Below are positions 3,079-19,400 of a stretch of DNA of 64,000 nucleotides, piece after piece; within the stretch, counting starts at the first letter, position 1; every line of letters starts with the position of its first letter. This stretch comes from Rhodobacter aestuarii (GTDB taxonomy: Bacteria > Pseudomonadota > Alphaproteobacteria > Rhodobacterales > Rhodobacteraceae): assembly GCF_900156655.1 (NCBI RefSeq), contig NZ_FTOG01000009.1:124001-188000 (forward strand). The letters are read 5' to 3'. The notes below the pieces were generated by a model. That model did no database searches and had not been told where the DNA came from. It was given only the letters and a program-made list of their open reading frames with translations. Position numbers and translations under genes: made by a program.

Positions 3079-3222
3079 AAATAGGGGCTCCGCCCCCAAA
3101 CCCCCGAGATATTTCGACAAAGTCGAAGCCAAAGGGCGCTCAGAGAGGTGCCCTTTTTCCTACCAAGCCTTTTCAACTTGGGGCAAATATCCCGCAGGAT
3201 GGGGGCAGCTTCGCCCCCCCCC
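3079..3222. repeat. Two facing copies of a dispersed intergenic repeat
   Basis: Two related segments face each other between tpiA and the Lrp gene. The left one (about 3080-3128, read on the minus strand) runs from a TTCGACTTTGTCGAAATATC end through CTCGGGGG to a GGGGGCGGAGCCCC hairpin. The right one (about 3181-3217, plus strand) has GGGGCAAATATCCCG and a GGGGGCAGCTTCGCCCCC hairpin. The core AAATATCCCG (AAATATCTCG in the left copy) plus a G/C hairpin recurs at 19352-19400. Similar elements occur downstream of many Rhodobacteraceae genes, as I recall. Confidence 0.6.
3131..3158 (+). terminator. Rho-independent terminator after tpiA
   Basis: AAAGGGC pairs with GCCCTTT around a 12-base loop and is followed by TTCC, giving T5 on the plus strand. 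The stem also reads on the minus strand with an A-rich start, so it may serve the convergent Lrp gene too. Confidence 0.6.
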
Positions 3223-19076: not shown

Positions 19077-19203
19077 CCGCGTTGCGCCCGCTTTGGCGGG
19101 CGCTCCAATTGGGGCCTTTGGGGCTATGCGGCCCGAATAGGGCCGCGGTCCCCCTTGCCCCTTTGGCCATCCCGCCCCGGATAGCTCTAAAAAGGCTGGG
19201 CCC

Positions 19204-19220
19204 TTAAGGTTTCATTAACC
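19204..19220 (+). promoter_or_regulatory. Full gapped CtrA recognition site
   Basis: The sequence TTAA-N7-TTAACC matches the CtrA consensus TTAA-N7-TTAAC exactly. It lies about 40 bases before the predicted 5' end of the candidate small RNA. From base composition I estimate about 0.1 such TTAA-N7-TTAA sites by chance in this window. Confidence 0.55.
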
Positions 19221-19249
19221 AGACTCAGCCAGCCTTAAGCCACGGTACA

Positions 19250-19330
19250 GGCGGGGACGCCGATGACCGTCAAAGTCGAAGGCGCTTCGCTTACCCTCCC
19301 CTCTGAGGCCCGAGTGAAGCGCCTTTTCTC
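19250..19330 (+). ncRNA. Candidate small RNA with CU-rich loop
   Basis: A 10-bp perfect stem AAGGCGCTTC (19279-19288) / GAAGCGCCTT (19316-19325) encloses a 27-base loop containing CCCTCCCCTCT, an anti-Shine-Dalgarno-like run. TTTTCTCATTT follows as a terminator tail. A CtrA box lies just upstream. The 5' end is inferred from the distance to that box. The stretch could instead encode a 39-residue ORF from ATG 19263, with no good ribosome-binding site. It may also simply be the pyrG terminator. Confidence 0.35.
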
Positions 19331-19351: not shown

Positions 19352-19400
19352 CTTCGACTTTGTCCAAATATCCCGGGGGTGAAGGCTCCGGAGGAGCCGA
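19352..19400 (+). repeat. Third copy of the dispersed intergenic repeat
   Basis: CTTCGACTTTGTCCAAATAT followed by CCCGGGGG matches, with two differences, the reverse complement of the segment near 3100-3128. A GGCTCCGGAGGAGCC stem follows. It lies downstream of pyrG and of the convergent LysR gene. Confidence 0.65.

Follow-up and report, generated by a model that had tools for sequence, protein, structure and literature searches.

Which function could be served by the gap between pyrG and lysR in the stretch of 64,000 nucleotides from Rhodobacter aestuarii analysed here (hereafter the window; contig NZ_FTOG01000009.1, positions 124,001 to 188,000)? A first-pass annotation had placed in this gap a candidate small RNA under the control of CtrA, the regulator of the cell cycle and of gene transfer in Rhodobacterales. 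Our comparisons suggest, with a probability that we would put at about 0.55, that the locus is the gene for a guide-like small RNA of a repeat family resembling repetitive extragenic palindromic (REP) sequences, with an effector outside the candidates that we tested. This reading is carried by a 10-nt sequence within the predicted RNA, which recurs in repeat sites flanking the RNA gene and elsewhere in the same genome, and which differs between species together with those sites. All of the support consists of sequence comparisons; the genomes of the relatives, to which handles such as G011 refer, are partly drafts, and G000 is the window's own genome. The parts of the locus, in window coordinates, are the following.

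19179 to 19199, forward strand: degenerate left repeat site, with GGATAGC... where GGATATTT-NNN-10mer is expected; intact at the same place in G011.
19204 to 19220, forward strand: CtrA-type box TTAA-N7-TTAACC, consensus positions -39 and -28 from the head.
19230 to 19235, forward strand: -10-like element CAGCCT (consensus CANNCT).
19242 to 19330, forward strand: predicted small RNA of about 85-90 nt, with a putative start at A19242.
19243 to 19269, forward strand: conserved, structured 27-nt head CGGTACAGGCGGGGACGCCGATGACCG.
19271 to 19280, forward strand: 10-nt guide CAAAGTCGAA, following one pyrimidine at 19270.
19278 to 19326, forward strand: terminator-like hairpin with Ts, variable in sequence among relatives.
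19353 to 19372, reverse strand: right repeat site GATATTT-GGA-CAAAGTCGAA, cognate to the guide.
3108 to 3127, forward strand: cognate site in trans, GATATTT-CGA-CAAAGTCGAA, within the window; a diverged inverted partner lies at 3172-3191.

Since the left site is degenerate in the window, this copy has one intact flanking site in addition to sites in trans. The site at 3108 belongs to a guide-less site pair (3108-3191) that encloses a T-tailed hairpin, and the 10-mer of the second site has diverged (CCAAGTTGAA).

The sequence features named in the first-pass annotation were readily recovered. The exact CtrA-like box TTAAGGTTTCATTAACC at 19204-19220 is the sole TTAA-N7-TTAA of the window, and its rarity by chance was confirmed by shuffles, in which 0.09 such sites are expected, or 0.02 of the form ending in CC. 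The hairpin is present with 10 perfect base pairs (AAGGCGCTTC/GAAGCGCCTT), Ts after it, and a loop of 27 bases that contains CCCTCCCCTCT. Folding lengthens it to 15 bp (19278-19326); the RNA fold z-score of the hairpin is -5.8, and that of the whole predicted RNA (89 nt) is -4.4. The best-conserved part of the locus, 19243-19269 between box and hairpin, had been missed. The conserved working part is the head together with the 10-nt guide, upstream of the hairpin, and not the loop. Nor is the element specific to pyrG, because it adjoins many different genes and is also found on plasmids.

Alignment of the copies revealed a unit that begins with a GC-rich palindrome, GGGATATTT, NNN and a 10-mer (site A), followed by the promoter and the 27-nt head. 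Next come one pyrimidine, the same 10-mer (guide B) and a variable hairpin, often with Ts; the unit often ends with site C, made up of the 10-mer in reverse complement, NNN and AAATATCCC. Guides were compared with sites in 207 element copies (n = 167 for site A and n = 144 for site C), and a copy's guide fits its own flanking sites far better than the guides of other copies do. At guide positions 1-5 and 7-10, agreement with both flanking sites is at least 92% each, except at position 5 with 71-73%, while position 0 almost never matches and agreement is random from position 12 onwards. Agreement between sites A and C covers these same 10 positions plus the motif and does not extend to NNN, which argues for two addressed sites rather than a simple stem. 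Among 35 elements read in the genus, all but one have a matching site nearby.

The mismatches follow a pattern of their own. At position 6, an A in the site faces a G in the guide in 198 of 208 mismatches; an A in the guide never faces a G in the site, and a T or G in the site always faces the identical guide base. Over all loci, differences at positions 5 and 6 are almost exclusively from A (site) to G (guide) and never the reverse. Such one-way differences preserve Watson-Crick or G-U pairing with the strand opposite the site 10-mer, and this indicates that the guide strand acts as RNA.

Guide and sites also change together at fixed places. The pyrG-lysR gap is orthologous in G000 and G011, as both neighbours are conserved, and the two genomes have different guides there, each with a matching site C. 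In several other congeners this gap holds sites only, with further 10-mers. C16 of G000 and C4 of G011 share little order, and their comparison is limited to pyrG and one other site. One orthologous gene end has a site pair in G011 and none in G000. Another such place, flanked by genes for an acyl-CoA dehydrogenase and a CoA-ligase-type protein, holds 39 element copies with many different guides, and both sites match the guide in 36 of these 39. The element occurs there in both orientations (16 versus 23; L104, L050, L052 and 36 others), as if it had been inverted between its two inverted sites.

Cognate sites are moreover found genome-wide, and in a species-specific manner. Sites of the form GATATTTNNNCAAAGTCGAA, which correspond to the window's own guide CAAAGTCGAA, number 16 in G000, 29 in G017 and 7 in G004, with 0 in the 15 other congeners. 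Sites with the 10-mer of the pyrG element of G011 (CCAAGGTGAA) number 69 in G011, 98 in G014 and 1 in G000. For the guide of G001 (TCAGGTTGAA) it was predicted beforehand that sites would occur in G001 only; indeed, 93 were found in G001 and 0 in the 17 others. Reversed 10-mers, counted alongside as controls, gave 0 sites.

The head itself is widespread and structured. When the pyrG-lysR gap was used as a DNA query against 61 genomes, the matches concentrated on 19240-19285. The 19-mer ACAGGCGGGGACGCCGATG, with at most 1 mismatch, was present in 134 of the 296 genomes sampled from the family, almost every one from a different genus, and reversed controls gave almost none. The head is also carried by small plasmids of Rhodobacterales, Rhizobiales, Methylocystis, Legionella and others. 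In a phylum-wide pattern scan of whole genomes it was, in the form searched, confined to its own family, and phage records gave no match to it; one viral contig (L263) carries it. L263 and L020 both come from outside Rhodobacterales, and in each a complement of the guide, instead of an identical sequence, is situated a short way upstream. The fold of the head is CGGT-ACA-GGCG-GGGA-CGCC-GATG-ACCG. Its inner stem is 100% paired across 22 distinct heads, with compensatory changes in 3 of 4 pairs, and its covariation score exceeds those of all 500 shuffles and of every slid control. A stem of at least 8 bp follows the guide in 202 of 206 copies, compared to 102 of 206 after shuffling. Three types of head occur within the genus, and guides and sites are particular to each type. 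The window's own genome has a second guide element (L032, G000:C19:337243, about 1470-1620), with a GGGA/TCCC head and the guide CCAAGGAGAA. A cobalamin riboswitch shares the L032 locus and is also found near the L030 copy of G009, which adjoins cobO- and cobB-type genes. In the plasmid record L289 (5001-5032) the 'hypothetical protein' gene AYD05312.1 is annotated such that its end overlaps with the head, and this gene call may be spurious. A small open reading frame from the ATG of the head was considered and dropped, because some copies have early stops (TGA at codon 4 in L016, a stop at codon 9 in L042) and what is conserved are the stems and the 10-mer. Rfam 15 contained no meaningful match to the element at gathering or permissive thresholds, and the head sequence was absent from a literature text search covering open-access PubMed Central (PMC). 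The element apparently belongs to an undescribed family of small RNAs.

The promoter was examined in 197 Rhodobacterales copies aligned on the head. The TTAA halves lie at -39 and -28 from the head core, a -10-like element (CANNCT) has its A at -12 and its T at -8, and the base at -1 is a purine in all copies. TTAAC occurs within -36 to -18 in 84 of the 197 copies, compared to 0 of 1634 control windows taken from upstream sequence. CtrA promoters of R. sphaeroides have an invariant A at -11 and, when activated, the box near -35 (PMC6180460); with -1 taken as the start, the element has the same layout. Both TTAA-N7-TTAA near -35 and a -10 element, as expected of a CtrA-activated promoter, are thus found. 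These data lend good support to a small RNA with a CtrA-type promoter of which the box is a conserved part, and we infer that the element is transcribed under CtrA control. The first-pass proposal of a small RNA from a CtrA promoter accordingly stands as far as box and promoter layout are concerned, which are conserved in the comparison, and is not supported for the loop, which is conserved in a few close relatives only. The transcript start, originally put at 19245-19255, is now predicted at 19242, given the purine at core position -1 and the CANNCT box at 19230-19235. Rhizobial plasmid copies seemingly have an ordinary -35 (TTGNCN), as judged by eye, which makes control by CtrA look like a trait that the element has in Rhodobacterales.

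The favoured mechanism may be outlined as follows. Transcription would start at about 19242 from the CtrA-boxed promoter and yield an RNA of about 85-90 nt, comprising the 27-nt hairpin head, one pyrimidine, the 10-nt guide and the terminator-like hairpin. Judged by its sequence, this is the anatomy of a guide RNA: a constant scaffold, a short guide that varies and, next to the sequence addressed, a constant motif. The guide would pair, G-U pairs allowed, with the strand opposite the 10-mer in CCCCCGGGATATTT-NNN-10mer sites, which flank the RNA gene and recur species-specifically at tens of intergenic places. In an RNA-protein complex, GATATTT would be read in the manner of a protospacer-adjacent motif (PAM) and the 10-mer by the guide. 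The whole would resemble a REP/REPIN system of repeats whose master copy is the RNA gene between its two inverted sites. The target is most likely DNA. DNA or opposite-strand RNA is favoured because downstream sites in the same direction give mRNA of the guide's own sense, with which it could not pair; the orientation data behind this argument are rough, as are the automatic gene calls around the sites, which do not settle orientation relative to genes. The outcome might be mobility, regulation or insulation.

Several observations weigh against this explanation. Guides differ between species, although a diffusible guide that has as many as 98 sites would be expected to resist change. The NNN and the outer flanks are not common to the sites, so these are not recent copies of one unit. 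G017 has 29 sites, and its guide was not located; guides behind diverged heads may escape detection. The guide could instead pair with an opposite-strand RNA, or with its own site C alone. Lastly, no effector emerged from the three protein families tested. Y1 transposase (RAYT) and TnpB/Cas12f were each found in 0 of 18 congeners, with positive controls, and were rejected on the grounds of this absence. Cas7e, tested as the type I-E form only, was found in 9 of 37 genomes without tracking the element; many carriers do not have it, and it was rejected because of this patchiness. The window's own genome does encode a type I-E cas7 (PF09344, G000:C18:102846-103838), which is absent from many congeners.

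An unlikely alternative, though the one that survives best, is a local RNA switch or extended bidirectional terminator, in which A, B and C are arms of one transcript that does nothing in trans. A would pair with C in read-through RNA from a neighbouring gene, and B with C in internally started RNA. Indeed, A is complementary to C, B is complementary to C with G-U pairs, the hairpin adjoins a U-rich C, and the unit often lies between convergent genes. However, many copies have no site C and nevertheless keep the match between A and B, the NNN that separates motif and 10-mer is not complementary in A and C, and cognate sites without a guide occur by the tens across the genome, confined to the same species. 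In plasmids that have no adjacent left site, the match to the guide lies farther off, up to 1.9 kb away, behind the same motif, at the following positions.

Mesorhizobium: -926.
Shinella: -1885, plus an inverted copy at +174.
Rhizobium: -885.
Ancylobacter: -1323.
Methylocystis: -275.
Methylomagnum: -332.

On three of these plasmids the distant left site is separated from the guide RNA by toxin-antitoxin genes (parDE, hicAB, fic). In the Rhizobiales plasmids L267, L268 and L299 the toxin-antitoxin arrangement is situated roughly 500 bp from the end of repA.

Slightly less probable still are mobile or gene-converting palindromic repeats acting purely as DNA, of the REPIN or miniature inverted-repeat transposable element (MITE) type, which copy or convert each other and of which B would be a captured third copy with no role as RNA. 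The inverted pairs around the unit, the species-specific families, the gain and loss of sites, the spread on plasmids and the presence of both orientations at one locus all agree with this. It does not account for B, which has no GATATTT motif and yet keeps exactly 10 positions, nor for the one-way A to G differences that preserve G-U pairing, nor for the conserved head structure and promoter; moreover, Y1 transposase is absent from the 18 congeners, and NNN and flanks are not shared among sites.

We consider it very improbable that the RNA is a CreA-like guide of a type I Cascade, with the head as a solitary CRISPR-like repeat and a short spacer. The head is of repeat length with a handle-like GATGACCG, a hairpin follows the guide, the motif lies 5' of the target, and the own genome encodes a type I-E cas7. 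Cas7e is nevertheless missing from many carriers, the head is conserved across classes while cas genes vary, and the motif is 3 nt away from the target. Every sixth guide base should be unpaired in Cascade, whereas position 6 is Watson-Crick or G-U paired in nearly all copies; an initial reading of its mismatches as the flipped base of Cascade was abandoned when the joint table showed G-U wobble. Weakest of all is the first-pass model of a CtrA-controlled trans-acting RNA whose C-rich CCCTCCCCTCT loop binds Shine-Dalgarno sequences: CtrA box and loop sequence are both present, but the loop is preserved in no more than a few close relatives and reads CCCGCCCC or something unrelated in most, in contrast to the conserved head and guide. 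The CCTC of the loop moreover pairs with GAGG in the fold, which also speaks against such a function.

If the guide acts on its sites, RNA guidance would here work without any of the three effector families that were tested as candidates, in a system that is common in a well-studied family of bacteria and is also carried by plasmids of several classes. The broader proposal that this is a new RNA-guided system of Proteobacteria, unrelated to CRISPR, TnpB and RAYT, in which a hairpin-headed RNA uses a 10-nt guide plus GATATTT to address genome-wide repeats and guide and sites evolve in concert, falls somewhat short of an even chance in our estimation. Such a system may spread, rewrite, invert or regulate its sites. 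It is hard to see how known processes would change a 10-mer in an RNA gene together with as many as about 100 genomic sites, and this raises the question of what reads and what rewrites these sites. If true, the proposal would link an RNA-guided system to CtrA and could account for many of the short palindromic repeats that lie between genes in these genomes.

Among known systems, the alphaproteobacterial Hfq-type trans-acting small RNAs and the CCUCC-loop (CcsR/cuckoo) RNAs likewise have their own promoter, a terminator-like hairpin and, as in this copy, a C-rich loop. They differ in that the present element has no Rfam match, a variable 10-mer tied to flanking DNA repeats, and a C-rich loop that is not conserved. 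TldR and the omega RNAs of TnpB resemble it in having a short guide 3' of the scaffold and a T-rich motif 5' of the target; here, however, the scaffold is only 27 nt long, the motif is set off by NNN, and no TnpB/Cas12f domain was found in the genus. As in REPIN/RAYT systems, short palindromic, species-specific intergenic repeats often form inverted pairs and two of them bracket a master locus, and the species-specific inverted pairs that define REPINs are indeed found. The difference is that the gene bracketed here encodes a small RNA which includes the repeats' variable 10-mer, and that there is no Y1 transposase in the 18 congeners. The CreA guides of CreTA (PMC8501985, PMC9458426) fail on co-occurrence and on position 6 geometry: the head is here conserved and not degenerate, there are dozens of cognate sites, position 6 wobbles, and the element neither tracks Cas7e nor lies beside cas genes in the annotated plasmid regions read. 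CreA is nonetheless the closest in layout, with a solitary repeat-like hairpin head and a short spacer-like guide that matches a nearby DNA site behind a motif, and some of the plasmid copies of our element are likewise close to toxin-antitoxin genes.
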